Below are positions 11,281 to 58,840 of a DNA stretch of 61,075 nt, one piece after another (the stretch's first letter is position 1; every line of letters begins with the position of its first letter). Source of the DNA: Chryseosolibacter histidinae (GTDB lineage Bacteria > Bacteroidota > Bacteroidia > Cytophagales > Cyclobacteriaceae); assembly GCF_018598225.1 (NCBI RefSeq), contig NZ_JAHESF010000040.1, forward strand, positions 1 through 61,075, read 5' to 3'. The position numbers were made by a program, and so were the translations under genes. Below the pieces are notes generated by a model that worked only from the letters and a program-made list of their open reading frames with translations, did no database searches and had not been told where the DNA came from.

Positions 11281-11949
11281 ATGAAAATTTTGATCATCGG
11301 TGAGCAGGCAAACTTTGAGGAGTGCCGCGAAAAATTAGGCCACGACCACACCTATTCATGGGTGGGCGACCACCGTGAAGCGGAGAAATTCCTCGACACC
11401 CATTCGCTGATCTTCGATTTTATCATCGATGAAGAGCCCCACGAATTTGAGATCTATGCCAACAAGTCCGTTACCGTATTTCTGAACACCTGCAAGATCA
11501 GCCTGGGGGAGCTGGCCCATTCGGTGAACCACAAGATGTTGTGCACCGTGTTCGGGTTCAACGGCCTGCCTACACTTTTCAACAGGCCGGTGCTCGAGCT
11601 GGCCCTGTGGCAACAGAAAGACCAGCAGCAACTGCAAAAGATCTGCAGCAGCCTCGGCACAGAATTCATGCTGGTGGATGACCGGGTTGGACTGGTTACA
11701 CCGCGGGTCATCGGCATGATCATCAACGAAGCCTACTATACCGTACAGGAAGGCACTGCCAGCCGTGATGACATCGACATGGCCATGAAGTCTGGCACCA
11801 ACTATCCCTATGGTCCTTTTGAATGGAGCCGTCGCATCGGCATCAGGCATGTATACGAATTGCTGGAAGCGGTTTATGAGGACACGAAAGATGAGCGGTA
11901 CAAGATCTGCGCATTGTTAAAGAGGGAGTATTTGAGTACCGGTGGTTAA
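11281..11949 (+). CDS. Degenerate 3-hydroxyacyl-CoA dehydrogenase-like protein
   Basis: 222 residues. The C-terminal half (about 130-220) matches the 3HCDH C-terminal helical domain: DDRVGLVTPRVIGMIINEAYY, then the signature SGTNYPYGPFEWS. The N-terminal half aligns only loosely with the Rossmann domain. The glycine-rich GxGxxG loop is absent (IIGEQANFEE instead), and the region is about 60 residues short. The catalytic His of the HFFNP motif is not seen; the equivalent stretch reads VFGFNG. It is therefore probably not a working NAD-dependent dehydrogenase. It may bind an acyl-CoA or act as a scaffold. Single gene; no obvious promoter box. Confidence 0.8.
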   Translation: MKILIIGEQANFEECREKLGHDHTYSWVGDHREAEKFLDTHSLIFDFIIDEEPHEFEIYANKSVTVFLNTCKISLGELAHSVNHKMLCTVFGFNGLPTLFNRPVLELALWQQKDQQQLQKICSSLGTEFMLVDDRVGLVTPRVIGMIINEAYYTVQEGTASRDDIDMAMKSGTNYPYGPFEWSRRIGIRHVYELLEAVYEDTKDERYKICALLKREYLSTGG

Positions 11950-12007
11950 AAGTTTAAAGTTGGGGGTCGCATTAACTTGAAACTTGAAACTTTCAACTTG
12001 AAACTAA
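11949..12007. repeat. Heptad array, AACTTGA type
   Basis: From 11974 four consecutive 7-nt units begin with AACTT (AACTTGA three times and AACTTTC once), followed by AACTAAA. At 11949-11962 lie two units in the opposite sense, AAAGTTT and AAAGTTG. The array begins inside the last codon of the upstream gene and runs into the glmS terminator. It shares its units with the array at 22574. Confidence 0.85.
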
Positions 12008-12008
12008 A

Positions 12009-12033
12009 AAAGGCTCCTTTTTCCGGAGCCTTT
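12009..12033 (-). terminator. Intrinsic terminator of glmS
   Basis: A 9-bp perfect stem (12009-12017 and 12025-12033, AAAGGCTCC and its complement) with a 7-nt loop, followed on the minus strand by a run of T residues. It lies 28 bp after the glmS stop. It may also stop transcription from the plus-strand gene ending at 11949. Confidence 0.85.
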
Positions 12034-12060
12034 CACTAAGAACGTTTTCAATAATCGCTG

Positions 12061-13896
12061 CTATTCTACCGTTACCGACTTCGCCAGGTTGCGAGGCTGG
12101 TCTACGTTGCATCCGCGCATCACAGCGATGTGATAAGAAAGAAGCTGCAGCGGTATCACTGACACCATGGGCATCAGCGCTTCGTGAACAGCGGGAACTT
12201 CGATGGTGAACTCTGACATTTTGGGAATCAGCTTATCACCTTCGGTCACCACGGAAATTACCCTTCCTTTACGGGCTTTCACTTCCTGGATATTGGAAAC
12301 TATTTTCTCGTAGGAGCTGTCTTGTGTGGCGATGAACACCACGGGCATCTCCTGATCGATGAGCGCAATGGGTCCGTGCTTCATCTCTGCAGCAGGATAT
12401 CCTTCGGCGTGAATGTAAGAGATCTCTTTCAGCTTGAGCGCACCTTCCAGGGCCACCGGGAAATTGTAACCACGGCCCAGGTACAGGAAGTTGGAGGCGT
12501 CTTTGAAAGTATCGGCGATGACCTTGATCTGGTCATTCAGCTTGAGCGCTTTTTCAACTTTTGCAGGAATGGTCTCCATGTCTACCAGCAGCTCGTGGAA
12601 TTTCTGCTCCGTAATAGTTCCCTTCTTCTGTGCTACGATGAGCGCGATGAGGTTGAGCACGGTAAGCTGCGCAGTGAAGGCCTTGGTGCTGGCCACACCA
12701 ATCTCAGGACCTGCGTGTGTATAAGCACCGGCATGCGTAGCCCGTGGAATAGAGGAGCCCACAACATTACATACACCGAAGATGATAGCACCTTTCGATT
12801 TCGCCAGCTCGATCGCCGCAAGGGTATCTGCGGTTTCTCCCGATTGTGAAATAGCGATCACCACATCACCTTCGCGGACCACCGGATTGCGGTAGCGGAA
12901 CTCCGAGGCATATTCAACTTCTACCGGGATGCGGCAGAACTCTTCGAAAAAATATTCAGCCACCAGCCCCGCGTGCCATGACGTACCGCAGGCAACGATG
13001 AGGATACGGTCTGCATTCACCAGCTTGTTCACGTATTCGCGCAAGCCACCCAGCACCAGCCTTCCTGTTGCAGAATCGAGGCGACCCCTCATACAATCGC
13101 TGATGGAACGGGGCTGTTCGAAGATCTCCTTTAACATGAAGTGCTCGAACCCGCCTTTTTCGATCGCTTCCAGCTCGAGGTCAACGGTCTGGATATACGG
13201 CGTCAATGGTAGATTGGCTGTGTTCTTGATGCTCAGTTTGCCACCGTGGATCACAGCGATCTCCTGGTCGTTGAGGTAAACCACTTCATTTGTGTACTCT
13301 ACAATGGGCGTTGCATCAGAAGCCAGGAAGAACTCGTCTTTGCCCACACCCACTACAAGGGGGCTGCCTTTTCTGGCGGCCACAAGCAGGTCAGGATCTT
13401 CCAGCGACATGATCACAATGGCGTAGGCACCGATCACCCGTGTGAGCGCGAGGCGTACGGCTTCATCCAGCGAACATTTTTCGTGTTCTTTGATGTCTTC
13501 AATAAAATGGATGAAAACCTCGGTGTCGGTTTCGCTGAGGAATTTATGTCCTTTGTTAATGAGCTCCTGTTTCAGGGCGCTGTAGTTCTCGATGATACCG
13601 TTGTGGATGATGGCAAGCTTACCGGTAGACGAGTAGTGCGGGTGAGCGTTCACATCGTTAGGCTCTCCGTGGGTGGCCCACCGGGTGTGGCCGATGCCGA
13701 TGTGGCTGTCGAGGTTTTTGCCTTTCAGGTATTGTTCGAGCTCAGATACTTTGCCTTTCTTTTTGTAAACGTTAAGGCCTCCGTTCAGCAGAGCGATGCC
13801 GGCGCTGTCATAGCCCCGGTACTCAAGACGTTTAAGTCCTTTAATGACAATTTCGTGGGCCTGTCGTTTGCCCACGTAAGCTACAATTCCACACAT
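12061..13896 (-). CDS. glmS: Glutamine-fructose-6-phosphate aminotransferase (isomerising)
   Basis: 611 residues. The N-terminal class II glutamine amidotransferase domain begins MCGIVAYVGKRQ, with Cys2 as the nucleophile after Met removal. Two SIS sugar-isomerase domains follow (SQSGETADTLAAIE in the first; the C-terminus ends DQPRNLAKSVTVE as in the family). It makes glucosamine-6-phosphate from fructose-6-phosphate and glutamine, the first step to UDP-GlcNAc for peptidoglycan and LPS. No glmS ribozyme is seen upstream. It is 30 bp downstream of the DUF4270 gene and probably in one operon with it and the GT5 gene. Confidence 0.97.
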   Translation of the reverse strand: MCGIVAYVGKRQAHEIVIKGLKRLEYRGYDSAGIALLNGGLNVYKKKGKVSELEQYLKGKNLDSHIGIGHTRWATHGEPNDVNAHPHYSSTGKLAIIHNGIIENYSALKQELINKGHKFLSETDTEVFIHFIEDIKEHEKCSLDEAVRLALTRVIGAYAIVIMSLEDPDLLVAARKGSPLVVGVGKDEFFLASDATPIVEYTNEVVYLNDQEIAVIHGGKLSIKNTANLPLTPYIQTVDLELEAIEKGGFEHFMLKEIFEQPRSISDCMRGRLDSATGRLVLGGLREYVNKLVNADRILIVACGTSWHAGLVAEYFFEEFCRIPVEVEYASEFRYRNPVVREGDVVIAISQSGETADTLAAIELAKSKGAIIFGVCNVVGSSIPRATHAGAYTHAGPEIGVASTKAFTAQLTVLNLIALIVAQKKGTITEQKFHELLVDMETIPAKVEKALKLNDQIKVIADTFKDASNFLYLGRGYNFPVALEGALKLKEISYIHAEGYPAAEMKHGPIALIDQEMPVVFIATQDSSYEKIVSNIQEVKARKGRVISVVTEGDKLIPKMSEFTIEVPAVHEALMPMVSVIPLQLLSYHIAVMRGCNVDQPRNLAKSVTVE

Positions 13897-13926
13897 ATTG
13901 GGTTAGGGTTAGGAGATGGTTGGATT

Positions 13927-15369
13927 TTACGGGGTCGCGCCGCTGTTAGCCGGCACGGTATAAAAGATTCGGAGTTTTACATTGTTAGCATTGAAAGTGG
14001 TGCGGGTTACGCTGGTGCCTGAGGCCGGATTGAGCGGATTGATGCCCAGGTATCTGAGGCGGCTCTCATTCACAGCGTCGCCGGTGTTCCGGCCGTTGAA
14101 CAGACTCTGAACGAACAGGGTCATGAAGCCGGAGAACCGATCGTCGTCTGCATTGTATTTAAGACTTACCGGTGTACCGGATGAAGCATCGGAGTTCACA
14201 TAGTAGTGCCGGCTGTCGTTGAACAGGTAATAACGCAACATCGCTTCACGGTCGGCCGTCACCCTTGCGTACATGAACTGGTCATTGTTATTGACCACCT
14301 TCAGCAGCAGGTCTGTGTGCACCTCCGAGCCGGCAGATGATCCTACGTTATCGATCACCAGCTCTGCGGAGTTGATGACCAGTTTGTCGATGGTGTCGGC
14401 AAAGGCATAAAATCCTGACAGGTCGAGCTTTGTCATCATCGGTGCACCGCTCTGAACAGCCCTGAGCCCGGAAGCCGGTGCCATGCTTTGGTAAGATTGT
14501 GTAAGCGTTGCCAGCTCGGTAGCGCCGCGGTTCACGGTTACGTTGGTGAAATTGGGTGCATAAAGCGCCCCGTCAACAAACACAAAGCTCTTCTGTAACG
14601 TATCCTTCGTAGCGCCGTTTTCCATGGTATGATAGTGCACGATCAGCTTGCTCAATGAATTGGTAGGATTCAATCCAAGCACACCATTATCCTGCGTGGG
14701 TGTTATGGCAATGCCTTTTACAGCCGTCCGGAATTTCTTCGCGTCAGACAACTCTGAATTGTTGTCGTTATAGGCGATGTTGAACAGCTTCGTTCCAAAG
14801 GCATCGTTCAACCGGGCCTTCAGCAGGAACGTATCCTGTCCTGAAGTAAGCGCCTGGTTCTTTTTCAGGCTGTCGTAGTCCACGAGGATGTGTGCTTCAC
14901 CGAGGGTTGCGGGGTCGTACGGAACGGTGTAGTTGTAATACTGCCGCTTGTAATTGTTGATCGTATCGGTAAGCTCATGGACATTGAACTGCATATTCTG
15001 CGCGCCTGGAAATCCATACGAATAGAAATTCAGTCTGAGCTGAAGGGTTGTAGAATCATACACCGCCGAAGCATCGAGTTTCGATGTAGACGCCGGCTGC
15101 ATCTGGAAGAACGATTCCGTTCTGACCTTCCCGAGTTGCGCGTCGTTATAGGCGCCGATCAGGTTGATACCGCTGGTTCCCAGGTTATCGGTGATGATAG
15201 AGTCTATCAACACCACGCTGCTGGGCAACGGGATCTCAACATATGCAACATCAAATTTTGGTCGGGGATTTTTAAATCCTAGGAAGCCTGGTTCATCTTC
15301 ACAAGAGAAAAAAAATAAGGCAACTGCCGCTATCAACAGTTGCCTTAAGCTCTTAGCCCACAAGTTCAT
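13927..15369 (-). CDS. DUF4270 lipoprotein
   Basis: 480 residues. A lipoprotein signal (LLIAAVALFFFSCEDEPGFLGF) places the acylated Cys near residue 23. The rest is a long beta-rich domain matching DUF4270, common in Bacteroidota next to glgA-like and glmS genes. Function is unknown; a cell-envelope role fits the signal and the company it keeps. Its start overlaps the end of the GT5 gene by 17 bp, indicating translational coupling, and glmS follows by 30 bp. Confidence 0.9.
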   Translation of the reverse strand: MNLWAKSLRQLLIAAVALFFFSCEDEPGFLGFKNPRPKFDVAYVEIPLPSSVVLIDSIITDNLGTSGINLIGAYNDAQLGKVRTESFFQMQPASTSKLDASAVYDSTTLQLRLNFYSYGFPGAQNMQFNVHELTDTINNYKRQYYNYTVPYDPATLGEAHILVDYDSLKKNQALTSGQDTFLLKARLNDAFGTKLFNIAYNDNNSELSDAKKFRTAVKGIAITPTQDNGVLGLNPTNSLSKLIVHYHTMENGATKDTLQKSFVFVDGALYAPNFTNVTVNRGATELATLTQSYQSMAPASGLRAVQSGAPMMTKLDLSGFYAFADTIDKLVINSAELVIDNVGSSAGSEVHTDLLLKVVNNNDQFMYARVTADREAMLRYYLFNDSRHYYVNSDASSGTPVSLKYNADDDRFSGFMTLFVQSLFNGRNTGDAVNESRLRYLGINPLNPASGTSVTRTTFNANNVKLRIFYTVPANSGATP

Positions 15370-16276: not shown

Positions 16277-17122
16277 ATGAAGATTTTCAAGCAAATAAGC
16301 CCATTGAAAGCCCATTTAGAGGCTGCCAGGCTGAGCGGTAAAAGTATCGGATTGGTACCCACCATGGGAGCCCTGCACAAGGGCCATCTCTCGCTGGTTG
16401 AGGCTTCTCAGGCTCAGAACCAGATCACTGTTTGCAGCATTTTTGTTAACCCGGCGCAGTTCAACAACCCCTCGGAGCTCCTCAAATACCCCCGCACCAT
16501 AGAGAAAGACACGGAAATGCTCAAAGAAGTTCGATGCGACGTGCTCTTTTGTCCGGAAACCGAAGAAATGTACCCACATCAATCAATGATCAAGCTCGAT
16601 TTCGACCCGCTCGATAAAGTGATGGAAGGCAAATTCCGTCCCGGACATTTCAGCGGCGTGGGACTGGTGGTATCCAAGCTGTTCAACATCGTGGAGCCTG
16701 ATCATGCTTATTTTGGTCAGAAAGACTGGCAGCAGTTTGCCATCATCAACCAGATGGTTCAGGACCTGAGCTTCGATATTACGCTGCACAGCATACCAAC
16801 CTTGCGCGAGCCAGACGGCCTGGCGTTGTCTTCGAGAAACCAGCGATTGACAAACGAGCAGCGGCCACACGCCACTGTTTTTCACCGCGCACTCACCCTT
16901 GCAAAACACAAGCTGCTGGAAGGCGAAAGACCTGAAGCAGTGCAGGCTGTCGTCAAAAATATGGTGGAAAATGAACCGGGTGTAACGTTTGAATATTTCG
17001 AGCTTGCCGACAGCACAAACTTAAACAGTATAAAAAACGTTGAAGCATCGAACCGGCCGATTATGTGTATAGCCGGGTACGTTGGCGAAGTGCGATTGAT
17101 CGACAACATGTTTGTTGAATAG
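16277..17122 (+). CDS. panC: Pantoate-beta-alanine ligase
   Basis: 281 residues. It condenses pantoate and beta-alanine with ATP to make pantothenate, the precursor of coenzyme A. The HIGH-type nucleotide-binding signature is in [16 protein letters not shown] (27-42). [18 protein letters not shown] and the second signature region [13 protein letters not shown] are also present. I start at 16277 because an in-frame ATG at 16250 overlaps the -7 box. It is followed by panD after a short heptad array, giving the last two steps of the pathway in one unit. Confidence 0.97.
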
Positions 17123-17150
17123 TCCACGGTCCACAGACGACGGTCCACAG
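17122..17150. repeat. Heptad array, GTCCAC type, between panC and panD
   Basis: Four exact 7-nt units plus a terminal G. The first is GTCCACG, the third GACGACG, and the second and fourth are GTCCACA. The first base is the last base of the panC stop codon. Same family and same four-unit layout as the left arms at 20848 and 36128, but with no opposite arm here. Confidence 0.9.
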
Positions 17151-20842: not shown

Positions 20843-20847
20843 TAAAG

Positions 20848-20961
20848 GTCCATAGTCCATGGTCGATGGTCCATAGCAGGGAGGACTAAAGCATCATGAC
20901 CGGAGTTACAATTGCAGGTTCACCCTGCACGTCCATGGACCATGGACTATCGACTATGGAC
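20848..20961. repeat. Palindromic heptad array, GTCCAT type, between convergent genes
   Basis: The left arm (20848-20876) has four 7-nt units plus G; the outer ones are GTCCATA and the third GTCGATG. The right arm (20931-20961) on the opposite strand again gives GTCCATA, GTCGATA and then two GTCCATG. A 54-bp spacer separates them, so the transcript could fold into a long imperfect hairpin. The arms lie 5 bp after the acyl-CoA dehydrogenase stop and 14 bp after the GGGP synthase stop. Confidence 0.92.
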
Positions 20962-20974
20962 CTGCATTTTTTGC

Positions 20975-21745
20975 CTACTGCCTACTGGTTCCCGCCAGTC
21001 GCTGGTTCCACTCGTATACCTTATCCGAGATCTCGATCAGCATGTCGGGATCTTTTTCCAACGCATTGCCGATCACGATCATGTCTGCTCCTGCTTCGAG
21101 GGCGTTCATGGCCTTGATGGGTGAGTTGATGCCGCCTCCGATGATCAATGGCAGGCTTATGGCTCTTCGCACCGAGGCGATCATCTTCGGGCTGATCTCA
21201 CGTTCGGCGCCGCTGCCGGCATCGAGGTAAATGCATTGCAGACCCAGCATCTCGCCGGCCATGGCGGTGCAGGCTGCAAGCGAGTACTTGTCTTCAGGAA
21301 TGGGAATGGTATTGCTGATGTAGGCTACTGAGGTGATCTTCCCTGAATTGATCAGCATGTATCCTGTGGGAATGATCTCGAGCCTGGTGTTTTTCAAAAT
21401 AGGTGCCGCCATCACATGCTGGCCGATCAGCAGCTCCGGGTTTCGTCCGGAGATCAGTGACAGGAAGAGAATGGCATCCGCCGATGGTTCGATCTGCATG
21501 GAGTTGCCGGGAAAAAGAACCACCGGGAGATTTACGTTCTTCTTGATGTGCTTGATCACCTCCGAGAGATTGGCTGTGGTGATCAGGCTGCCCCCAACGA
21601 AAAAGTAATCAACACAGTTTTCGCTGGCCAGGTTGATCAGGTAATGAAGCTTAGACAGGTCATCGACCTTATCGGGATCGATGAGCACAGCGATGGATTT
21701 TTTTCCAAGCTTGTGTTTCTCACGCAGCGCGCTAAGCAGGTTCAT
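20975..21745 (-). CDS. Geranylgeranylglyceryl/heptaprenylglyceryl phosphate synthase (group II)
   Basis: 256 residues of PcrB/GGGPS TIM barrel. It joins a polyprenyl diphosphate to sn-glycerol-1-phosphate, forming an ether lipid bond. Motifs: VLIDPDKVDD near the start, FFVGGSLI, VVLFPGNSMQIEPSADAI, YLDAGSGAE, and the phosphate-binding PLIIGGGI and IVIGNALE. This archaeal-type enzyme is known in Bacteroidota as group II GGGPS; the role of its product in bacteria is unclear. The ATG at 21745 overlaps the upstream gene by 14 bp. Confidence 0.92.
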   Translation of the reverse strand: MNLLSALREKHKLGKKSIAVLIDPDKVDDLSKLHYLINLASENCVDYFFVGGSLITTANLSEVIKHIKKNVNLPVVLFPGNSMQIEPSADAILFLSLISGRNPELLIGQHVMAAPILKNTRLEIIPTGYMLINSGKITSVAYISNTIPIPEDKYSLAACTAMAGEMLGLQCIYLDAGSGAEREISPKMIASVRRAISLPLIIGGGINSPIKAMNALEAGADMIVIGNALEKDPDMLIEISDKVYEWNQRLAGTSRQ

Positions 21746-22511: not shown

Positions 22512-22573
22512 AAAACAACTCCTTATGCAATATAGACAGAAGATTTTAACCCGGAAAAAGGAATGCCCGGGGT

Positions 22574-22615
22574 AAAGTTTAAAGTTCCCGGTTTAAAGTT
22601 TAAGGCTCAAAGTTA
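22574..22615. repeat. Heptad array, AAAGTTT type
   Basis: Six consecutive 7-nt units. Units one and four are AAAGTTT, unit two AAAGTTC, and unit six AAAGTTA. Lies between the holin-like gene start and the Na/Pi cotransporter stop. Same unit family as 11949-11962. Confidence 0.85.
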
Positions 22616-35407: not shown

Positions 35408-36126
35408 GAGCATTAATCGTGGATGACGAGCGACTGGCGCGAAAGGAGTTGATGAAGCTGCTGGAAGACCATCCGATGATTGAAGTGATTGGCGAGGCGA
35501 TGAATGCCGATGAAGCCGTGCCGATGATCAACGAGTTAAATCCCGACCTTTTATTCCTGGATATACAGATGCCGGGAAAAACCGGTTTCCAGCTGCTGGA
35601 GATGCTGGATTCGGTTCCCCTGGTGGTGTTTACAACGGCTTACGATGAGTTCGCCCTGAAGGCATTCGAAGTCAACGCGCTGGATTACCTGCTCAAGCCG
35701 ATCCATCCCGAGCGCCTGTCCGAGACCATTGCCAAGCTTTCGGAAAAAGAACGCGCGAAAGCAGTAGCCGTGCATGGCCCTGAGAAAAAGCTGGGACTGA
35801 ACGACCAGGTTTTTGTGAAGGATGGCGACCGTTGCTGGTTTGTGAGCCTGAGCAACGTAAGACTCTTTGAATCTGACGGCAATTACATCAAGGTATATTT
35901 CGATAACAACCGTCCCATGATCCATAAGTCGCTGAACGCGCTGGACGAAAAACTTGACGAACGTGCCTTCTTCCGCGCAAGCCGCAAGCACATTGTAAAC
36001 CTGAGCTGGGTAGAAGGCATCGAACCCTGGTTCAACGGTGGGCTTATGGTAAGGTTGAAAGGTGGCGACAAAGTGGAAGTAAGCCGTCGCCAGGCAGCCA
36101 AGTTCAAGGACATGATGTCGCTTTAG
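35404..36126 (+). CDS. LytTR-family response regulator
   Basis: 240 residues. The receiver domain has the acidic pocket in IVDDERLARKEL, phospho-acceptor Asp53 in LLFLDIQMPG, and Lys in LLKPIHP. A LytTR DNA-binding domain (about 135-240) follows with SDGNYIKVYF, FFRASRKHIVNLSWV and VEVSRRQAAKF. Translationally coupled to the LytS kinase by a 4-bp overlap. It probably binds direct repeats upstream of a few targets; none is evident in this window. A palindromic heptad array starts 1 bp after the stop. Confidence 0.95.
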   Translation: MRALIVDDERLARKELMKLLEDHPMIEVIGEAMNADEAVPMINELNPDLLFLDIQMPGKTGFQLLEMLDSVPLVVFTTAYDEFALKAFEVNALDYLLKPIHPERLSETIAKLSEKERAKAVAVHGPEKKLGLNDQVFVKDGDRCWFVSLSNVRLFESDGNYIKVYFDNNRPMIHKSLNALDEKLDERAFFRASRKHIVNLSWVEGIEPWFNGGLMVRLKGGDKVEVSRRQAAKFKDMMSL

Positions 36127-36127
36127 A

Positions 36128-36247
36128 GTCCACAGACCACGGTCGACGGTCCACAGTAGTTCGGTGTGAGAAACCAATCAGGACTTCGTAGGCAACATTA
36201 AGTTCCAACACTCCACTGCAGTGGACAGTGGACTGTCGACCGTGGAC
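36128..36247. repeat. Palindromic heptad array, GTCCAC type, between convergent genes
   Basis: The left arm (36128-36156) has four 7-nt units plus G; the first and fourth are GTCCACA and the third GTCGACG. The right arm (about 36217-36247), read on the other strand, begins GTCCACG, then GTCGACA, then two GTCCACT. A spacer of about 60 bp separates them. It fills the gap between the convergent LytTR regulator and TPR-kinase genes. Confidence 0.92.
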
Positions 36248-36260
36248 TGATAACGTTCAC

Positions 36261-38285
36261 TTATTGAGTAACCGCCGCATACTCGCCTACATAAGGCAAG
36301 GCAAAGCTGAATACCGAGCCCTTCCCTACCTCACTTTCAACCCAGATCCGTCCGCCATTCTTTTCGATGAACTCTTTGCAGAGGATCAGGCCGAGGCCGG
36401 TTCCTTTTTCGTCTGCCGTGCCTTTGGTTGAATATTTTGTGTCGATGCGGAAGAGCTTCTGCACCACTTCCGGAGGCATGCCTACCCCGTTGTCTCTGAT
36501 GGAAACGATCACTTTGTCATCACTTTGTTTCATGCCCAGCACAATGGTTCCTCCTTCGGGGGTGAACTTGATGGCATTGGAGATCAGGTTGCGCACCACG
36601 GTATTCACGGAGTGCCTGTGCGCATTGATGGTAAGCGCATCGGCATATTGACTTTCAAGGGTGATCTTTTTGTTCTGGGCCTGGGCTTGCAGCAGCTCTT
36701 TATTCTGTTGCAGCAGCGCCGGCAGGTCGAAGCGTTCGGGTTTGAACTCGATGCTGCCGGTCTGTGAGCGCGACCATTCCAACAGGTTCTCCAGCAACGC
36801 GAACAGGTTCTTCAATGACTTATCGAGGTCTTTCGCCAGCATCTTGATCTCATCTTTGCTCAGGCTGTCGGTATGGTTGATGAGCAATCCCGAAAAGGAA
36901 GTAAAAGAGTTCAACGGCCCTTTGAGGTCATGGCTGATGATGGAGAAGAACTTGTCTTTGGTAGCGTTCAGCTCCTGCAGCTGAAGGTTCTGTTGTTGCA
37001 CCCTGGCATTGGCCACCTGCAGTACTTTGTTGGAGCGCCGCTTGACAATGTACAGGTAGAGCGTGAGCAGAACGATCACGGCGGCGAGGGCGATCAGGGC
37101 TACCAGGAAATTCCTGAACTGTTTCTGGGCCTGCAGCTCCTTTTCACGCTCGGCGCGGATGGCATCGAGTCTTTCGATCTGCGATTGCTTCTGATCCATC
37201 ACATACCGGTTTTGAGTGGCCAGCAGCCGCTGCTCCGTTTTTTCGTTCTGGATGAAATCGTTGATGAGCACAAAATCATCTTTGTAGGCCAGGGCTTTCT
37301 GATAGTCGCCCAACGCGCTGTAGCATTGACTGAGGTAATCGTAGCTTCTCCTGATCTGCTCGCGGGCTTGTGCATCGCGCGCGGCGGCAAGGCCCAGCAA
37401 CAGGTTGGCGATGGAGCGTTCAAAATTCTTCTGCTGGAAATACAACACACCGATGTTGTTGAAAGACTCGGCAAGATCGCGTTTGTCGCCAAGGGCCTGC
37501 CGGATCTCCAGCGCCACAACGTGGTTGGCCAGCGCTTTTTCTTCGTTCTTCATCAGGCGATACAGCTCACCGATGTCGTTCAGCGAAAGCGCTTCGTTCT
37601 TTTTATCACGGATCTCACGGCGGATGCGCAGTGCCTCCTTATGCGTTTCAAGCGCCTTCTCGTATTTTCCCTGGTCGGTATAAAGGTGGGCGATGTTCAG
37701 CAAAGCTGCAGCCTCGTGCCGCGCATCCTCCACGTCGTCTTTGTAGCTGAGCACCGTCTCATAGTTCTCAAAAGCAGCATCGATCCTGCCAATGGAGGCG
37801 TTGGTTTCTCCAAGCTTGTTGAGGATCAGCACCAGCAGATCAACATCCCGGAACTGATCGTTCAACGCGTGAGCCTGTTCCAGCAACTCGAGGCTTTTGT
37901 AAGGATCGCCCGCTTCTTCAAACACATGCGCCATGGCCAGATAGGTGTAGACCTGATCCTGCTTCAGCGATAACGAATCTTCAATGGACAGTGAACGGAT
38001 GAAGAAGTCCATCGCTTTTTCGTAATCGTGCGTTCGGGTGAGATGGATCAGACCGAGTGTTTTGCTTGCCATGGCTTCCGCCGTCGCGTCGTGGGCATCA
38101 ACCGCTTCGTCCAGGTCAGCCACGGCCTGCTTCAGGTCATTTTCAGCAGAGGTCTGCTTGTCCCTGAAAAAGCGCTCGTACCATTGTATGGTTTGCTGCG
38201 TGGTTTGTTGTTGTGCAGGTGAATGCCCATAGCAGAATGCCAGCAGGGTCACAGCTCCGAAAAAAATGATTGTCTGGGAAGACAT
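36261..38285 (-). CDS. TPR-repeat sensor histidine kinase
   Basis: 674 residues. Signal peptide (TIIFFGAVTLLAFCYGHSPAQ), then a periplasmic array of about seven tetratricopeptide repeats (for example AALLNIAHLYTDQGKYEKAL, SFNNIGVLYFQQKNFERS). A coiled coil comes next, then one membrane segment (FLVALIALAAVIVLLTLYLY), a second coiled coil, HisKA with the phospho-His in FFSIISHDLKGPLNSF, and an HATPase with NLISNAIKFTPEGG, DNGVGMPPE and KGTGLGLILCKEF. No receiver domain is fused and no partner regulator is adjacent. The periplasmic TPRs probably sense a protein or peptide. An 8-bp inverted repeat lies just upstream of the start. Confidence 0.95.
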   Translation of the reverse strand: MSSQTIIFFGAVTLLAFCYGHSPAQQQTTQQTIQWYERFFRDKQTSAENDLKQAVADLDEAVDAHDATAEAMASKTLGLIHLTRTHDYEKAMDFFIRSLSIEDSLSLKQDQVYTYLAMAHVFEEAGDPYKSLELLEQAHALNDQFRDVDLLVLILNKLGETNASIGRIDAAFENYETVLSYKDDVEDARHEAAALLNIAHLYTDQGKYEKALETHKEALRIRREIRDKKNEALSLNDIGELYRLMKNEEKALANHVVALEIRQALGDKRDLAESFNNIGVLYFQQKNFERSIANLLLGLAAARDAQAREQIRRSYDYLSQCYSALGDYQKALAYKDDFVLINDFIQNEKTEQRLLATQNRYVMDQKQSQIERLDAIRAEREKELQAQKQFRNFLVALIALAAVIVLLTLYLYIVKRRSNKVLQVANARVQQQNLQLQELNATKDKFFSIISHDLKGPLNSFTSFSGLLINHTDSLSKDEIKMLAKDLDKSLKNLFALLENLLEWSRSQTGSIEFKPERFDLPALLQQNKELLQAQAQNKKITLESQYADALTINAHRHSVNTVVRNLISNAIKFTPEGGTIVLGMKQSDDKVIVSIRDNGVGMPPEVVQKLFRIDTKYSTKGTADEKGTGLGLILCKEFIEKNGGRIWVESEVGKGSVFSFALPYVGEYAAVTQ

Positions 38286-38315: not shown

Positions 38316-38380
38316 AAGTAAGACTATATTCAGGGGAAGTGGGGATTAATCTTACATCGATCGGGGTGTGGTGTTTGGCC

Positions 38381-38415
38381 AGAAGTCAGGAGCCAGAAGC
38401 CAGGAGTCAGAAGAG
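38381..38415. repeat. Heptad array, AGAAGYC/AGGAGYC type
   Basis: Five consecutive 7-nt units alternating AGAAG and AGGAG starts: the first is AGAAGTC, the second AGGAGCC, and the fifth AGAAGAG. Lies between the TPR kinase start and lutC. Confidence 0.9.
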
Positions 38416-38441
38416 CGACCCTTCGGTCAAGCACTGGTCCG

Positions 38442-38469
38442 CGTACCTCGTATTTCGTACCTCGTACCT
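38442..38469. repeat. Heptad array, CGTACCT type
   Basis: Four 7-nt units: CGTACCT three times, with CGTATTT in second place. The last unit includes two bases of the lutC stop codon. It is 26 bp from the preceding, unrelated heptad array. Confidence 0.9.
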
Positions 38470-47843: not shown

Positions 47844-47925
47844 ATTGGGCATTGAGGCGTTAAGACGATCTTTGTATCCCGCTGCATTTTCCAATGCCCA
47901 ATGCCTGACCTCCCAATGCCAATAC
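47844..47925. repeat. Heptad array and inverted repeat, CCAATGC type
   Basis: ATTGGGCATTG at 47844-47854 is the exact complement of 47892-47902. From 47891, CCAATGC repeats twice at 7-nt spacing; further CCAATG copies follow with small indels up to 47925. It begins 2 bp after the rhaM stop and lies before the GH106 gene. Confidence 0.85.
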
Positions 47926-50870: not shown

Positions 50871-51089
50871 GCTGAAGGCAGAATCTTACATCAGTTCGTA
50901 TTTTGTGAAACTTTTTTTGACTTATAACTAATTGGTAATAAGGCGTTTCACTGTATTTTTTATTGATTTTTTCAAACGATTACACAAACGGTATAGTGCA
51001 GGACAGTTTCCTTTATCTTAGGGTGTACATTCGTAAGGATCGTGCAATCGATTGCGCATCCTATCAAATTAACTCTAACCCTAAATCGT

Positions 51090-54000
51090 ATGACGAGACT
51101 TCTATCTCACTTAAACTGTTCTGCCCGGCGCTTTTGGCCGGTCGGATTCATGCTCCTCCTGTGTTGTCATGCCGCCACCTGGGCGTACGGCGACAACTCC
51201 TTCTCCACTTTCCAGGAACGCACCATCAAAGGCCGCGTAACATCGGCTGACGATGGCCTTGGCTTCCCGGGGGTGAACATCATTGTAAAGGGAACCACCC
51301 GCGGCACCGTATCGGATGCCGAAGGCAATTACTCCATCGAAGTTTCATCGGCGGATGCCATCCTGGTGTTCAGCTCCATCGGCTACAAAACCACCGAGGT
51401 TGCCGTGGGCACACAAACCGACATCAACCTGGCCATCGAGCCGGATGTAACGTCGTTGTCTGAAGTAGTTGTTGTTGGTTATGGAACCGTGAAGAAAAGC
51501 GATGTAACGGGTGCACTCGCCTCCGTATCAGGAGAGCAGCTGCGCGCCATCCCCGTGCAGAGCATTTCACAGGCACTCCAGGGCCGCGCTTCCGGCGTCG
51601 ACGTCTCGCAATCAGGTTTCCGCCCCGGTGAGAACCCGGTGATCAGGATCCGCGGTAACCGCTCGCTCATCGGTGGTAACGATCCCCTCATTGTGCTCGA
51701 CGGCATTCCACTCCCGGAAGGGTCAGGCATCAACGACTTCAACCCCAACGATGTAGAATCGATCGAAGTGCTCAAAGACGCTTCCTCCGCCAGCATCTAC
51801 GGCTCGAGGGGCGCTAACGGTGTGATCCTCGTAACCACAAAAAGAGGAAAAGCAGGTAAAGCAAAAGTAAGTTACGATGGTTATGTTGGCGTTTCTTCTG
51901 CGCTGTCTACCATCGATATGATGAGCGGCGGCCAGTTTGCCGAGCTGAGAAGGGAAGCAAACCGTAACAACTCAGGCCTCGTGTACAGCTTGCCTTGGGC
52001 CGATGTAGCGCAGGACTTTGCAGCGTTCAGTGGCCAGGACATCGAGATGTGGAACTCTGTTGCTGACGGATACCAGTGGGTTGATCGCGCCAACAGGATT
52101 CCCGTAACACGGCCTGTCACTGCCGAAGAACGTGAAGCATACGAAGCCTACTATCAGCAGGCGCTCATCCGTTATCCTGTGGGTTCCCAAAGAACTGCTG
52201 CCATTACAACCAAGCTCAATAACCTCCGTGCGCTGCTCGATGATCCGAACCTTCAGATCCCGGTGTATGATGCCAGCAAAGTAAGGAACACAAACTGGGG
52301 CGACCTTGCGCTGAGAACCGGCATCAAACAAAACCACCAGTTCAGCGTATCCGGAGGAAGTGACAACATCGGTTTGTTCTTCGGCGGCGGATACTACAGC
52401 GAACGCGGGATCCAGGAGTCACAGGCGTTCAAACGTTTCAACGTAAAGCTGGGCCTCGATTACAAGATCAGCGATGCGATCAAAGTGGGCGGTACCATTA
52501 CCGGAACCTCTTCCACCCAGAACTACGGCTCACCCCTTTACTTCAGGGCTATCGGCCAGCTTCCGGTGGCCATCCCTTATGACGCCGAAGGGCGTGTGAT
52601 CCTTCAGCCTGGTGGCGATGCGCTCATCTTCAGCCCGCTCAATGAGATCGAAGACTTCGTCGATGACAGGCTCACCAACAGAGCATTCGGCAGCTTCTAT
52701 GCCGATGCCAAACTCCCTATCAAGGGACTTCGCTATCACGTGAACGTAGGCACAGACTTCAAACATTACAGAAGAGGACGTTACCAGGGTGCGCTCACCT
52801 CTGACAGAAGGGGTGGAACTTCCTGGGCAGACTATTCGCAGGAACAAAACTTTACTTATGTGCTGGAGAACCTGCTTTATTACGATAAACAGGTGGGCGT
52901 TCACAATTTCGGTGTAACAGCGCTTTACAGTATCCAGGAAGATCGTTTCGAAGCTTCCGGTGTTAACGTTGCCAACCTTCCTTATGAGTCACAGCTGTTC
53001 TACAACCTGGGCTCCACCAATGCCACAGGGCCTGATGCGTTCAGCTCCAATTTTACAAGAAAGGTATTCATCTCGTACATGGGCCGTATCAATTATTCAT
53101 TGATGGACAAATACCTCCTGACGGTAACAGGCCGCTACGATGGATTGTCGCCACTGGCTCCCGGCAACAAGTGGGGTTTCTTTCCCTCGGCATCACTGGC
53201 GTGGAAGATCCATCAGGAAGCTTTTATGGACAACCTGAATCTTTTTGACGAATTGAAGTTGCGTGTGGGCTACGGTGAAGTGGGTAATGCAGCAGTGCCA
53301 CCTTACCTGGCACCGGGAAGGATCATCAAGACTCCCTACGTATGGGGTGAAAGCGCGGCGTGGGGTTTTGTGCCCCAGTTCTTTCCGAACCCCAGCCTGA
53401 AATGGGAAAGTACACAATCGCTGAACGTCGGTATTGACTTCGGCATCCTGGGTGGCCGTATCACCGGTAGCATCGAAGGCTATCAACAGAATACGCAAGA
53501 CCTGATGATGTACCGGAACCTGCCTACCGCTTCAGGCTTCTCATCTTATCTCGAGAACGTAGGAAAGGTACGCAACACCGGCATCGAGCTCTCACTGAAC
53601 TCCGTGAACATCGATGCAGGCGACCTGAAGTGGACCACCGGCATCATCTTCTCCAAAAACAAAGAAGAGCTTGTTGAGCTTTATGGAGGAACCAATGACG
53701 ACCTGGGCAACCGCTGGTTCATTGGCCATCCAATTACAACTTATTATGACTGGGAACCCATCGGCGTATGGCAGTCTGATGAAAAAGATGCTGCTGCAGC
53801 GTACGGAAGAATCCCCGGTCAGGGCAAGATCAAAGATCAGCTTACCGTGGATTCAGATGGAGACGGTGTAAAGGATGCGCCTGATGGTGTGATCAACGCC
53901 TCCGATATGGTGATCAGGGGTAACAACGTACCCAAGTGGACAGGAAGTATTGTGAATACCGTTTCTTACAAAGGCGTCGAGCTTTCATTCATGGTCTACA

Positions 54001-54464
54001 CCCGTCAGGGACAGCTCATCGCCAGCGGTTATTACAGGCCCGCGCTCGCCGGAAGGTACACAGAGCCTGCGTTCGTGGATTACTGGACTCCCACCAATCC
54101 AACCAACGTGTATCCCCGTCCTACTACAGATCAGGAAAGGATCGATTATCCCAACGCGTACCTGTATCAGGATGCTTCGTTCGTGAAGATGCGGAACATA
54201 TCACTTTCTTATACTTTCCCCAAGTCGATGATCTCCCGCTTTAAAATGGAGAACCTGAAAGTATACGTCACAGCATACAATCCATTCCTCTGGACGGATT
54301 TCAAAGGTGGTGATCCGGAGTTCTATGCAAACTCAACCCGCATACCTGCCGGGCAAACACTTCCTGTTCCCATCACCAATATCGATGACCAGCTTGTCAA
54401 CGCAAACAATGGCAGTAACCTCAGCGAAAGGAGTTTTGTGTTCGGCCTTACCGTTGGTTTCTGA
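51090..54464 (+). CDS. SusC/RagA family TonB-linked outer membrane protein
   Basis: 1124 residues. Signal peptide (WPVGFMLLLCCHAATWAYG), carboxypeptidase-like regulatory domain (IKGRVTSADDGLGFPGVNII), then the SusC plug with SLSEVVVVGYGTVKKSDVTG and GRASGVDVSQSG, IVLDGIPLPEG, ASIYGSRGANGVILVTTKRG. A 22-stranded barrel ends in RSFVFGLTVGF with the C-terminal Phe. It imports oligosaccharides, here probably rhamnose-containing, with energy from TonB. I chose the ATG at 51090 over 51042 because the signal peptide then has normal length. SusD follows by 27 bp. The 219 bp upstream have a near -7 box (TATCTTAG, 51014-51021). Confidence 0.97.
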   Translation: MTRLLSHLNCSARRFWPVGFMLLLCCHAATWAYGDNSFSTFQERTIKGRVTSADDGLGFPGVNIIVKGTTRGTVSDAEGNYSIEVSSADAILVFSSIGYKTTEVAVGTQTDINLAIEPDVTSLSEVVVVGYGTVKKSDVTGALASVSGEQLRAIPVQSISQALQGRASGVDVSQSGFRPGENPVIRIRGNRSLIGGNDPLIVLDGIPLPEGSGINDFNPNDVESIEVLKDASSASIYGSRGANGVILVTTKRGKAGKAKVSYDGYVGVSSALSTIDMMSGGQFAELRREANRNNSGLVYSLPWADVAQDFAAFSGQDIEMWNSVADGYQWVDRANRIPVTRPVTAEEREAYEAYYQQALIRYPVGSQRTAAITTKLNNLRALLDDPNLQIPVYDASKVRNTNWGDLALRTGIKQNHQFSVSGGSDNIGLFFGGGYYSERGIQESQAFKRFNVKLGLDYKISDAIKVGGTITGTSSTQNYGSPLYFRAIGQLPVAIPYDAEGRVILQPGGDALIFSPLNEIEDFVDDRLTNRAFGSFYADAKLPIKGLRYHVNVGTDFKHYRRGRYQGALTSDRRGGTSWADYSQEQNFTYVLENLLYYDKQVGVHNFGVTALYSIQEDRFEASGVNVANLPYESQLFYNLGSTNATGPDAFSSNFTRKVFISYMGRINYSLMDKYLLTVTGRYDGLSPLAPGNKWGFFPSASLAWKIHQEAFMDNLNLFDELKLRVGYGEVGNAAVPPYLAPGRIIKTPYVWGESAAWGFVPQFFPNPSLKWESTQSLNVGIDFGILGGRITGSIEGYQQNTQDLMMYRNLPTASGFSSYLENVGKVRNTGIELSLNSVNIDAGDLKWTTGIIFSKNKEELVELYGGTNDDLGNRWFIGHPITTYYDWEPIGVWQSDEKDAAAAYGRIPGQGKIKDQLTVDSDGDGVKDAPDGVINASDMVIRGNNVPKWTGSIVNTVSYKGVELSFMVYTRQGQLIASGYYRPALAGRYTEPAFVDYWTPTNPTNVYPRPTTDQERIDYPNAYLYQDASFVKMRNISLSYTFPKSMISRFKMENLKVYVTAYNPFLWTDFKGGDPEFYANSTRIPAGQTLPVPITNIDDQLVNANNGSNLSERSFVFGLTVGF

Positions 54465-56339: not shown

Positions 56340-56365
56340 GTTAATTTGTTTGTTTGGGGTAGTGA

Positions 56366-56397
56366 AAAGGTTGCCTGTCATGGGCAACCTTTTTTTA
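56366..56397 (+). terminator. Intrinsic terminator of the SusCD operon
   Basis: A 10-bp stem (AAAGGTTGCC and its complement; left arm 56366-56375, right arm from 56383) with a 7-nt loop, followed by a run of T. It lies 27 bp after the SusD stop. Confidence 0.9.
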
Positions 56398-56515
56398 TTT
56401 CATGCAATTGTCAGACAACCTACCAGTCATTAGGCGACACCGAATGAATTCACGAGCGACCGATGCAAGCCGGTGCAGATGAAGTGTAGCCCTGATATTG
56501 TATGTGTTATTTCTT

Positions 56516-56523
56516 TATCTTTG
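56516..56523 (+). promoter_or_regulatory. Bacteroidota -7 box for the MTHFR-like gene
   Basis: TATCTTTG (TAnnTTTG) 25 bp upstream of the ATG. A TTG at 56498 is 15 bp further up, slightly short for a -33 element. Confidence 0.6.
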
Positions 56524-56548
56524 ACCTTTTATCGAATAACTCCGTAGC

Positions 56549-57520
56549 ATGTTTTTGACCAAGATCAGGAGAAAAGAGTCAGGGATCCTACTCTATGGCA
56601 TCACTCCGCCCAAAGTACAAACGGCGCCCGAAAAGATAACGGAGATCGCGGAACGCACTTTTAACATTCTCCATCCACTCGACATCGATGCCCTGGTAGT
56701 TTATGATGTGCAGGACGAATCGGCCCGCACCACGGAAGAAAGACCTTTTCCGTTCGCCAGCGCGCTTGATCCTTTTGAGTATACCAGTCAACACCTGCAA
56801 CGGCTTACCATCCCCAAGATCATCTATCGCCCTGCAGGCAAGTTCACCCGCGAAGAGCTGACGCAGTGGCTCAACGGCCTGAAGACGCACGGATTTTATC
56901 CCGTGTTCGTAGGCTTGCCTTCACCCGATTATGTTGTGAAAACAAGCCTCGGCGAAGCGTATCAGCTATGGCGCGAGCAGCATGCACACCACTCCGTGAT
57001 CGGCGCCGTTACCATTCCCGAACGCCACGCCGTGCTGAAAGACGAAGATGTCAGGATCCTGGACAAGGTGAGCTCGGGTGTTTCTTATTTCATATCACAA
57101 TGTGTGTTCAACGTAGACTACGCCCGGCAAATGCTGGAAGCGCTCGTCACCACCTGTGCGAATAAGAATCAGGAGCTGCCCACGGTTATTTTTACATTGA
57201 CGATCTGCGGCTCAGTGAAAACGCTTCACTTCATGGAGTGGTTGGGCATTCACATCCCCGAGGCCATGAAAGAAGAGCTCAAGGTGTGCAGCAGTCCCGT
57301 GGCGCGTTCGGTAGAGATCGCCACATCCATTGCCCAAGACCTGATCCGTTACTGCCAGGAAAAGGCCATCCCCTTCGGATTCAATATTGAAAGTGTGGCC
57401 ACGCGAAAAGAAGAAATAGATGCATCGCTCGAGCTGTTGAATACTGTAAGGGAGCTGCTGAAAGTAAACGGCTTGCGCAGCGAAGTGAAGGCACACCAGT
57501 TTGTGAACGTGAACCGCTAA
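56549..57520 (+). CDS. Methylenetetrahydrofolate reductase-like protein
   Basis: 323 residues of probable TIM-barrel protein resembling a broad MTHFR-like family: YGITPPKVQTAPEKITEIAE, ALVVYDVQDESARTTEERPF, SYFISQCVFNVDYARQML, FTLTICGSVKTLHFMEWLG and FGFNIESVATRKEEIDAS. These blocks recur in proteins labelled MTHFR in actinobacteria and others, distinct from E. coli MetF. Classical MTHFR reduces methylene-THF to methyl-THF with FAD; activity of this branch is not established to my knowledge. Single gene, with its stop 3 bp from that of the convergent MFS gene. Confidence 0.72.
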   Translation: MFLTKIRRKESGILLYGITPPKVQTAPEKITEIAERTFNILHPLDIDALVVYDVQDESARTTEERPFPFASALDPFEYTSQHLQRLTIPKIIYRPAGKFTREELTQWLNGLKTHGFYPVFVGLPSPDYVVKTSLGEAYQLWREQHAHHSVIGAVTIPERHAVLKDEDVRILDKVSSGVSYFISQCVFNVDYARQMLEALVTTCANKNQELPTVIFTLTICGSVKTLHFMEWLGIHIPEAMKEELKVCSSPVARSVEIATSIAQDLIRYCQEKAIPFGFNIESVATRKEEIDASLELLNTVRELLKVNGLRSEVKAHQFVNVNR

Positions 57521-57523
57521 CGT

Positions 57524-58702
57524 TTACCTGGCGGGTGCAGGACGCACGAACTTCACCAACGACAATACACCGATAAGCGGGCCCGGCACGAGCACCAGGA
57601 ACAGGTACTGCGCGGGAATGAACTGTTGCGCATAGCTGATCAGTTGAATGCTGGCGATGGTGATGCAGAATCCGATGCTCGTCACCAGCGTGATGGCCGA
57701 GCCGCGGAGCTGGTCGGGTGCATTGCGCGCCACCAGAGCCGAGAACTGTGGAGAATCAGCCGCCACGGTCACACCCCAGAAAACGGTGAATAGAATAAAC
57801 AACCACAGTGGCAGGTGCCACATGAACGGAGAAAGCAGGCAGCACAGTCCCGACGCCAGCAGCGCATAGGCCGCCACCCGAAAGCTGCCGATCCTGAACG
57901 ACCAGATCCCGCCCATCACACAACCCGCCGCCCCAGACGCGATGATCAGGAAACACACGAGTGAAGGCTGAAAGTGCCGCTGCGTTACCTCCTGGTAATG
58001 CATCACGATAAAAGGAACAAAAGCCCAGTAGGCGTACACCTCCCACATATGTCCGAAGTAACCGATAGCAGATGCCCGCAGAGTGTCGTTGCGAAAGATC
58101 TTGCCCATCGCCGCCAGTGAAAACGCCGAGGCACGCTTGCGATAGGGGCCATCGGGCACATACACGAGCAACATCACTGCGCCGGCTACACATAACGTTG
58201 AGATCACCACCAGCAGAATGGAAGGCTGCACGAGCTGCGGCACCAGCTTCAGGCTGTAGGGAAAGGCAGTGCCGAGCACCAGCGCTCCTACCAGCGCTCC
58301 GAGCCAGTGACCCAAACCCTCTGCCTGCCAGTCGGCGGCGATCTTCATGCCGACGGGATAGATGCCCGCCAGAAAAATACCCGTGAGACACCGGCTGACG
58401 AGCACCAGTGGATAAGAAGAAATGTCGATCAGGGCGAGCAGGTTGAAAGCGCCGGCAGCAAGCGAGCTTACGAAGAACAACTTCGAAGGTTGAAAGCGGT
58501 CTGCGAGGCCCAGCGCCGCGAAGATGAGTGTACCTGCTATGAAGCCCAGTTGTGTGGAAGAAGTGAGATAGCCCAGCGCAGAAACGGGCCAGCCATACGC
58601 CGCCTGGAGCTGCGGCAGCACAGCATTACCGGCAAACCACAGCGACGTGCCGCAGAACTGTGCGATAACAATGACATAGAAGACGCGCTGTTGCTGACTC
58701 AA
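57524..58702 (-). CDS. MFS transporter
   Basis: About 392 residues with twelve membrane segments of the major facilitator superfamily: VFYVIVIAQFCGTSLWFAGNAVLPQL at the start, LGLADRFQPSKLF in the loop between TM2 and TM3, and GIYPVGMKIAADW in TM5. Related to cyanate/nitrate-type or Bcr-like MFS groups; the substrate is unknown. No ATG is available in the expected place. TTG at 58702 gives a normal N-terminus and lies 18 bp after a -7 box. The frame is open to an ATG at 58822, but that would translate the heptad array and the promoter. Confidence 0.85.
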   Translation of the reverse strand: MSQQQRVFYVIVIAQFCGTSLWFAGNAVLPQLQAAYGWPVSALGYLTSSTQLGFIAGTLIFAALGLADRFQPSKLFFVSSLAAGAFNLLALIDISSYPLVLVSRCLTGIFLAGIYPVGMKIAADWQAEGLGHWLGALVGALVLGTAFPYSLKLVPQLVQPSILLVVISTLCVAGAVMLLVYVPDGPYRKRASAFSLAAMGKIFRNDTLRASAIGYFGHMWEVYAYWAFVPFIVMHYQEVTQRHFQPSLVCFLIIASGAAGCVMGGIWSFRIGSFRVAAYALLASGLCCLLSPFMWHLPLWLFILFTVFWGVTVAADSPQFSALVARNAPDQLRGSAITLVTSIGFCITIASIQLISYAQQFIPAQYLFLVLVPGPLIGVLSLVKFVRPAPAR

Positions 58703-58720
58703 GCTCGCGGAGTTTGTTGC

Positions 58721-58728
58721 CAAATATA
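58721..58728 (-). promoter_or_regulatory. Bacteroidota -7 box for the MFS gene
   Basis: The minus strand reads TATATTTG (TAnnTTTG), 18 bp upstream of the TTG at 58702. Confidence 0.55.
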
Positions 58729-58745
58729 AACATTGAGATGTAAGT

Positions 58746-58840
58746 CCCGATAGCCATCGGGATGAGACATGTGATAGGAGATCGCGAACCTGAGGGACGG
58801 TTGGTATTGTCTCAAATCCCACGTCTCATATCTCCTGTCT
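58746..58840. repeat. Palindrome plus inverted heptad arrays, ATGAGAC/GTCTCAT type
   Basis: First a 16-nt palindrome, CCCGATAGCCATCGGG (58746-58761). Then three 7-nt units from 58762 (ATGAGAC first, AGGAGAT third). After a 26-bp spacer, four units from 58809, the third GTCTCAT and the fourth ATCTCCT, are exact complements of units in the left arm; a partial GTCT closes it. Confidence 0.9.

Follow-up and report, generated by a model that had tools for sequence, protein, structure and literature searches.

Intergenic arrays of 7-nt units in Chryseosolibacter histidinae (Bacteroidota; RefSeq assembly GCF_018598225.1) are attributed, as the probable though by no means certain explanation, to the arms of short dispersed hairpin elements, which resemble REPINs (repetitive extragenic palindromic (REP) doublets forming hairpins) or miniature inverted-repeat transposable elements (MITEs) and apparently spread as whole pairs between intergenic sites. 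The direct support for this assignment is the inverted pairing of the arrays, the matching ends of copies, their dispersal, their position at gene 3' ends, and their presence or absence relative to a genome of the same genus (G002). The arrays were first pointed out in contig NZ_JAHESF010000040.1 from its letters alone (hereafter the sequence-only reading). This stretch of 61,075 nt, the window, is the entire contig C57 of the genome, denoted G000 (8.04 Mb, 122 contigs). Statistics for G000 refer to a sample of 861,075 bases consisting of the window, C34:1-420,000, C11:1-40,000 and 17 pieces of 20 kb each, with contigs below 600 bp (n = 20) excluded. Genes are our own longest open reading frame (ORF) calls, with no annotation used.

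At the standard lag-7 threshold (11 of 14), the 355 intergenic pieces of at least 40 bp (78 kb) hold 151 segments, whereas 30 dinucleotide shuffles of the same pieces yield 2.7 on average and 6 at most. The sequence-only reading had named two outcomes that would speak against it, i.e. no 7-nt period elsewhere in the genome or an equal frequency in shuffled DNA, and this difference excludes both. The lag-7 autocorrelation peak is confined to intergenic DNA, and the strict setting, a 21-base lag test, returned 74 intergenic and 13 "coding" segments at period 7, with zero or one intergenic segment at each of the periods 4–6 and 8–13 (periods 14 and 21 being harmonics). Tandem intergenic 7-nt units above chance are also the mark of heptanucleotide simple sequence repeats (SSRs), known as short tandemly repeated repetitive sequences (STRR) or long SSRs (LSSR). 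Within the window, nine intergenic segments reach 11 of 14; the corresponding 100 dinucleotide shuffles average 0.14 segments and never exceed 2. All nine arrays of the sequence-only reading are readable at or beside the places where it had put them; those at 17122, 22574 and 58762/58808 are weaker and fall below the 11-of-14 threshold (Tandem Repeats Finder scores of 33 for 17122, 35 for 22573 and 39 for 58808), and the array at 58762 was identified by eye only.

The sample yielded 187 segments, 149 of them intergenic, and the units, whose clustering the sequence-only reading had suggested, fall into about nine classes. At a fit of 0.80 these classes, which we drew up from the same data that they classify, account for 137 of the 149 intergenic arms, compared to a mean of 18.5 (5–38) for 15 permuted libraries; at a fit of 0.72 they account for 145, which is weak evidence as the permuted libraries then average 80.5 (42–118). 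The class sizes at 0.72 are A (GTCSAYR) 38, D (GTTRCCR) 25, B (AGTTTAA-like) 21, E (GTRATCR) 14, C (RGTACGA) 12, F (TGAGAYW) 11, G (AGYCAGR) 10, H 7 and G2 (AGTAAGR) 7, with D and E intergrading. Linear extrapolation gives about 1,400 intergenic arms for the whole genome. The arrays had been described as completely different in unit sequence from site to site, which does not hold: those at 17122, 20848 and 36128 share family A (GTCCAYR), and those at 11949 and 22574 an AGTTTAA-like unit. That units vary at set positions within an array was confirmed.

Family A was characterized further. A pattern of two and a half A units has 166 exact matches in G000 (75 + 91), and its backwards control has none. 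With one mismatch per unit allowed, the 67 A arms comprise 57 of four units, eight of three, and one each of five and six; another arm of about five units is located at C45:380278. A six-unit A arm on G000:C50 (L280, ~8.8–9.4 kb) has two TCGA units at a distance of 14 nt, suggestive of a two-unit duplication. In perfect arms of four units, the TCGA variant is located mainly in units 2–3 and is never seen in the fourth. Position 6 of the unit (C/T) is the same between neighbouring units in 116 of 119 comparisons (expected 0.56), whereas position 7 (A/G) is the same in just 45 of 119 (expected 0.50). The C-or-T state also agrees between the two arms of A pairs in 13 of 14 cases, the exception looking nested. 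One C-type and one T-type founder, subsequently copied, would explain the agreement at position 6 simply. Two broader regularities are not claimed: a universal RGT consensus of the 5' arm is weak (46 of 82 unit classes, compared to 41% of random necklaces), and the predominance of G over C, seen in 8 of the 11 families clustered, is unreliable, the clustering having merged orientations.

The arms are paired in a defined orientation. Among adjacent arms of the same family no more than 250 bp apart, 47 cases are +/-, three -/-, one +/+ and none -/+, and the +/- pairs comprise 94 of the 168 classified arms. The resulting elements measure 67–255 bp (median 121), with spacers of 8–29 bp in family C, 9–51 in B, 43–199 in A and 70–142 in D. 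Like MITEs, the 47 pairs possess terminal inverted repeats, and like REPINs with their REP-associated tyrosine transposases (RAYTs) they are dispersed intergenic inverted pairs of conserved ends that form a hairpin. All 47 fold better than mononucleotide shuffles (all z < -2, median z -6.1, median minimum free energy (MFE) -44 kcal/mol), an outcome to be expected because they were selected as inverted pairs. In the window, partner arms overlooked by the sequence-only reading lie at 20930-20962 and 36219-36247 (partners of the arrays at 20848 and 36128) and, in degenerate form, at 58808-58844 (partner of 58762); several of the arrays first listed are thus hairpin halves.

Whole elements recur with matching ends. 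A 2.4-kb query around 20848 matched four other sites over nearly the whole element and little else (99–120 bp, 73–81%). With window positions 36080-36290 as query, where the A element occupies query positions 49–168, three of 51 other matches span the element, running from 43–48 to 168–169, and single-arm matches mostly stop at 168–170 (some reach 172, 176 or 186). For a D element (query positions ~51–195), eight of 63 other matches span it, from 51–53 to 187–200. In the aligned copies (five A, eight D), the arms and parts of the spacer are common and the flanks are unrelated by eye. Three full-length D elements were also found within 4.2 kb at G000:C34:120367-124502, 82–87% identical to the first, which is likely a local amplification.

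These data bear on a different origin, in which the arrays are SSRs born site by site via 7-nt polymerase slippage and kept intergenic since frameshifting repeats are purged from genes. A polymerase footprint was reportedly proposed by Mrazek in 2007 as the basis of heptad slippage. Consistent with slippage are the five- and six-unit A arms, the long pure one-way arrays seen elsewhere (a long ATTAGGA run in G002; Anabaena loci), and a 2007 survey in which heptads outnumbered the other long SSR classes in most genomes (as cited in MacGregor 2015, PMC4679880). Conversely, slippage does not by itself produce inverted pairs, and the coverage of most arms by a few families above permuted controls, the prevalence of four units (57 of 67 A arms) and the recurrence of whole elements with matching ends all argue against it. 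We regard site-by-site slippage as rather unlikely for the arrays at large, and as possible for the founder arms and for the long one-way arrays elsewhere. The sequence-only reading had preferred one process to descent from one repeat. Within the genome, a few founder repeats fit better, given the recurrence of whole elements with matching ends; the notion of one process fares better between families and species, where different unit classes share both the 7-nt period and the inverted-pair layout.

The gaps containing the 47 pairs are tandem in 25 cases, convergent in 15 and divergent in six, with one at an edge, compared to 122 tandem, 52 convergent and 58 divergent gaps in the background of at least 100 bp. 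An arm lies within 20 nt of the 3' end of the flanking gene in 46 of 55 cases, with a median of 3 nt from the stop codon, and within 20 nt of the 5' end in 8 of 37 (median 80 nt), so that the reported adjacency of arrays to stop codons is true for most. Arms flush behind stop codons, strong stems, and a C–G or T–A state common to both arms (13 of 14) would also suit structures that were selected in place to terminate transcription in both directions or to stabilise mRNA 3' ends, with stem growth by heptads being incidental; the G002 counterpart of the 20848 site, where a degenerate hairpin with heptads of a different class precedes TTTTT, fits as well. However, T-tracts are not enriched: TTTT occurs up to 15 nt past the 3' arm in 4 of 47 pairs, compared to 10.5% of random intergenic windows, and the pairs are therefore not ordinary intrinsic terminators. 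With 25 of 46 pairs between tandem and six of 46 between divergent genes, and with eight of eight G000 array gaps free of a scored array in G002, selection in place appears unlikely.

Among 38 collinear orthologous gaps below 900 bp in G000 and G002, arrays are found in G000 only in eight, in G002 only in six, in both in none, and in neither in 24; arrays have thus been gained, lost or exchanged at orthologous sites, as the sequence-only reading had proposed to look for between strains. One such gap measures 13 nt in G002, whereas its G000 counterpart is 168 nt long and contains several arms. It should be noted that the G002 hairpin at the 20848 site is below the scoring threshold, and the absence of sites with arrays in both genomes is therefore a threshold result. 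In 400 kb of G002 (C5:100001-500000), period 7 is enriched too, with mostly other units (AGTCATT, ATTAGGC, AAGATTT, CAAGCTT and others), and its class ATTAGGC (GGCATT) resembles class H of G000. Intergenic segments of G002 at 11 of 14 number 23 at period 7 and 12 at period 8, with 7, 2, 2 and 7 at periods 6, 9, 10 and 11, respectively. The period-8 excess shows that the unit length is not always 7; the strict 7-nt period originally proposed stands for G000 and not for this congener.

Array density is uneven among genomes: at the stricter threshold (12 of 14), G000 has 100 segments in 861 kb (85 intergenic) and G002 has 23 in 400 kb. With low-complexity segments excluded, the corresponding counts are zero in 135 kb of G001, eight in 160 kb of G019, two in 100 kb of G018, and one in a total of 400 kb from five other relatives. 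Across 38 relatives, the two-and-a-half-unit A pattern is absent from both same-genus genomes and occurs twice in G019. The forward AGTCATT pattern is present in 10 of 395 genomes; its backwards control is itself a heptad family and hence not neutral.

Several observations weigh against the spread of whole pairs. As many as 74 of the 168 classified arms lie outside any same-family pair, and hybrid pairs of two families occur (G/C at 38378-38469 of the window, C/G on C34), neither of which is predicted by whole-pair copying. Matches to whole elements are few, the remainder being mostly single arms, and some A matches extend up to 18 nt beyond the arm. The existence of five- and six-unit arms renders the unit number partly variable. 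G002 is 18–34% diverged over aligned blocks, so that its "empty" sites are inexact. Target-site duplications, expected of MITEs, are absent from the 47 pairs (1.11 vs 1.01 ± 0.23 shuffled), which is neutral for single-strand transposition, yet the usual signature is missing. Moreover, no autonomous partner was found in the 861 kb, one of four Y1 transposase genes in G000 has a pair within 1.5 kb, and the Y1 domain PF01797 is present also in six genomes with zero or one array segment (80–135 kb each).

PF01797 counts are four in G000, four in G001, five in G002 and 28 in G015, with at least one in all 15 genomes tested. A Y1 transposase/RAYT link found no support: PF01797 and array density are unrelated where both were measured. 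In L093 (G000:C63; 953-1039 and 1243-2022), the 3' end of a RAYT-like Y1 transposase gene (PF01797, E 3e-9) is followed at ~200 bp by an inverted pair of family C; by our arithmetic, one such neighbour is not unlikely by chance at this array density. In G015 (C1, C2), 22 of the 28 PF01797 matches are equal in score and two are close, and 80 kb hold no period-7 segment; the set is attributed to an IS200/IS605-like expansion. The candidate interval for an autonomous element, L036, the sole neighbouring same-family +/- arm pair 300–4000 bp apart in the 861 kb, encloses a MacB/FtsX-type permease and no transposase. Regarding REP-type tags, a GTAG at most 8 nt away from an arm end is seen in 18 of the 47 pairs (random 22%), a mild excess in a minority of pairs, and a CGTC in 7 of 47 (random 17%). 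The arms are period-7 arrays and not the short palindromic ends (about 20–40 bp) of REPs.

On the reading of dispersed hairpins, an element would consist of an inverted arm pair around a variable spacer, with usually four heptads per arm in family A, and about nine unit families would coexist in the genome. The heptads may have arisen by 7-nt slippage in founder arms before dispersal, whereupon whole pairs would have moved to new intergenic sites, probably via a folded single strand and with no target duplication. We infer that a trans-acting enzyme drives the movement, a Y1 enzyme being a plausible but unsupported candidate. Elements would persist where they are least harmful, flush against gene 3' ends. 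There, their RNA would fold into strong hairpins, and a physiological effect, if any, would most likely concern transcript 3' ends.

The window contains the following elements. Family B is represented by a short 5' arm at 11950-11961 (+), read from the sequence and directly 3' of the stop codon 11947-11949, and by its inverted partner, a 3' arm of AACTTGA units at 11972-12005 (-); the next gene ends at 12061 on the - strand. A lone family A 5' arm at 17122-17148 (+) overlaps the TAG stop at 17120-17122, and the orthologous G002 site is without an array. The T-type A 5' arm at 20847-20876 (+), with four units and TCGA in the third, forms a ~116-bp element together with the 3' arm at 20930-20962 (-), with a calculated RNA MFE of -64.8 kcal/mol and z of -8.1 (dinucleotide shuffles). 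This element is adjoined by a short TGCCTAC array at 20972-20987 (-), a class H 3' arm. A weak family B 5' arm at 22573-22614 (+) is without a clear partner, and no array is present in G002. The C-type A 5' arm at 36128-36157 (+) begins 2 nt beyond the last base of a stop codon (36126) and is paired with the 3' arm at 36219-36247 (-; RNA z -4.8). The hybrid pair combines a family G (AGTCAGR) 5' arm at 38378-38413 (+) with a family C (GGTACGA) 3' arm at 38442-38469 (-). The class H array of CCAATGC units at 47891-47920 (-) has a short inverted partner, TTGGGCATTG, at 47845-47854 (+), read from the letters as was the degenerate family F (TGAGAYW) 5' arm at 58761-58782 (+). The latter is located between divergent genes (own ORF calls), and its degenerate 3' partner occupies 58808-58844 (-). 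Rfam gave no match above the gathering score in the window. Positions 51042-54464 encode a SusC/RagA protein (TIGR04056, E 9.6e-244), with an adjoining, weaker SusD-like match under its cut-off. As SusC/SusD pairs are not known outside Bacteroidota, the two genes point to this phylum.

Family A also occurs in other bacteria. In the species collection, at least 117 stretches match the pattern (GTCCATR)3G, compared to ~0.2 expected from base composition by our arithmetic. The titles listed for 80 of these cover Bacteroidota, Cyanobacteria (many Anabaena azotica), Planctomycetaceae, Lentisphaerae, Chlamydiae, Anaerolineae, Clostridia, Deltaproteobacteria, Omnitrophota, Gemmatimonadaceae, Oceanospirillales and Actinomycetota, many being metagenome-assembled genomes. 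Elsewhere in the loci listed, a set biased by selection for a heptad array, 125 further period-7 segments compare to 3–36 at periods 4–6, 8–11 and 13. Polarity is mostly kept: among the 117 matches listed, several of which come from one genome, the inverted arm is downstream in 31, upstream in two and in neither place in 84. Of 52 substitutions in the 3' arms of family A in other genomes (16 loci), 20 are the TCGA variant. Independent origins could yield family A across phyla, considering the many heptad-rich genomes and ~1,200 possible unit classes (our estimate); the kept polarity and the TCGA variant favour common ancestry or shared constraint. Family A arms were also seen in 18 stretches of viral contigs (L233-L250), which could be proviral, host contamination or cargo. 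Chitinophaga rupis (L124, 379-578), whose genome also has family A, carries AGCTAAT/AGCTAAA heptad arrays in opposite orientations, a further unit class.

A constant period over different units could also reflect a protein that binds in tandem with a footprint of 7 bp, and the A arrays of other genomes, nearly invariant at positions 1–2 (20 of 299 tabulated substitutions) and hypervariable at position 4 (130 of 299), are compatible with such binding. However, a single protein is unlikely to bind nine unit classes, G002 shows period 8, and classes B–H are no more frequent in other genomes than their letter-permuted controls (16 vs 17.0 of 125), making a protein footprint highly improbable. Extending the hairpin reading beyond this genome, we tentatively propose, as a possible if doubtful generalization, that heptad-armed hairpins are a separate widespread class of bacterial mobile DNA in which the copying machinery dictates the 7-nt step. 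Such a class would include the Xanthomonas GGGAATC repeats and perhaps the repeats of Nostoc and Beggiatoaceae, and families would be born and replaced per lineage while period, polarity, about four units per arm and the position behind genes stay fixed. Scattered reports of heptamer repeats in unrelated bacteria can be drawn together into one testable hypothesis, namely discrete hairpins invading the space behind genes, which could explain heptad over-representation in bacterial intergenic DNA. The elements offer fast-evolving strain markers and point to a hitherto undescribed dispersal activity. Should the RNA hairpins affect 3' ends, lineage-specific tails would be present on hundreds of genes in genomes of this type.

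Among known systems, the heptamer repeats described for Xanthomonas and Nostoc (Rehm et al. 2015, PMC4692102) provide a close parallel. The Xanthomonas GGGAATC repeats are intergenic, mostly four-unit arrays with close convergent inverted pairs (70 and 75 cases in two genomes), on average 28 nt from the 5' neighbouring ORF and 160 nt from the next, with 7–8% between divergent ORFs. G000 shares the heptad units, the four-unit arrays, the inverted pairs and the intergenic position near the upstream gene. The Xanthomonas repeats form one G-rich family (GGGANTN) discussed in terms of G-quadruplexes, whereas G000 has about nine families, mostly not G-rich; theirs have largely the same flanking genes in both species and generally no association with mobile elements, whereas in G000 the ends of copies match and the two congeners have no scored site in common. 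The elements share with REPINs and RAYTs (Bertels and Rainey 2011, PMC3116915) inverted conserved ends, a less conserved spacer, a hairpin and extragenic dispersal. They differ in that REPs are short palindromes tagged by GTAG or CGTC (PMC3733652) and not heptad arrays, and in that a convincing RAYT association was not found in G000.

Within Bacteroidetes, TAACTGA direct repeats have been reported from five representatives, and also from Beggiatoaceae and Cyanobacteria (MacGregor 2015, PMC4679880). In Gramella, Aequorivita and Elizabethkingia they occur alongside other intergenic heptamer repeats, and the corresponding intergenic regions in close relatives of Gramella and Aequorivita are shorter and repeat-free; Cyanothece strains differ by 7-nt indels. 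Intergenic heptamer arrays and presence or absence between close Bacteroidetes are thus common to both systems; unlike the families of G000, TAACTGA is one focal unit in direct repeats that, in the main genome, mostly lie immediately before start codons, and its proposed roles are translational or, for some Bacteroidetes, in gene rearrangement. The BrickBuilt element of Porphyromonas gingivalis (PMC4596501) is likewise an intergenic MITE with a tandem repeat, but has a 23-nt unit inside the element, small inverted ends and 19 copies in one strain. In the open-access literature searched, outside of which most subscription papers lie, we encountered no description of multiple heptad families as discrete hairpin elements that are copied. 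Intergenic heptad repeats, inverted heptad pairs (Xanthomonas) and presence or absence between close Bacteroidetes are already published; the G000 system is a richer variant of this known kind, with evidence for discrete copies.

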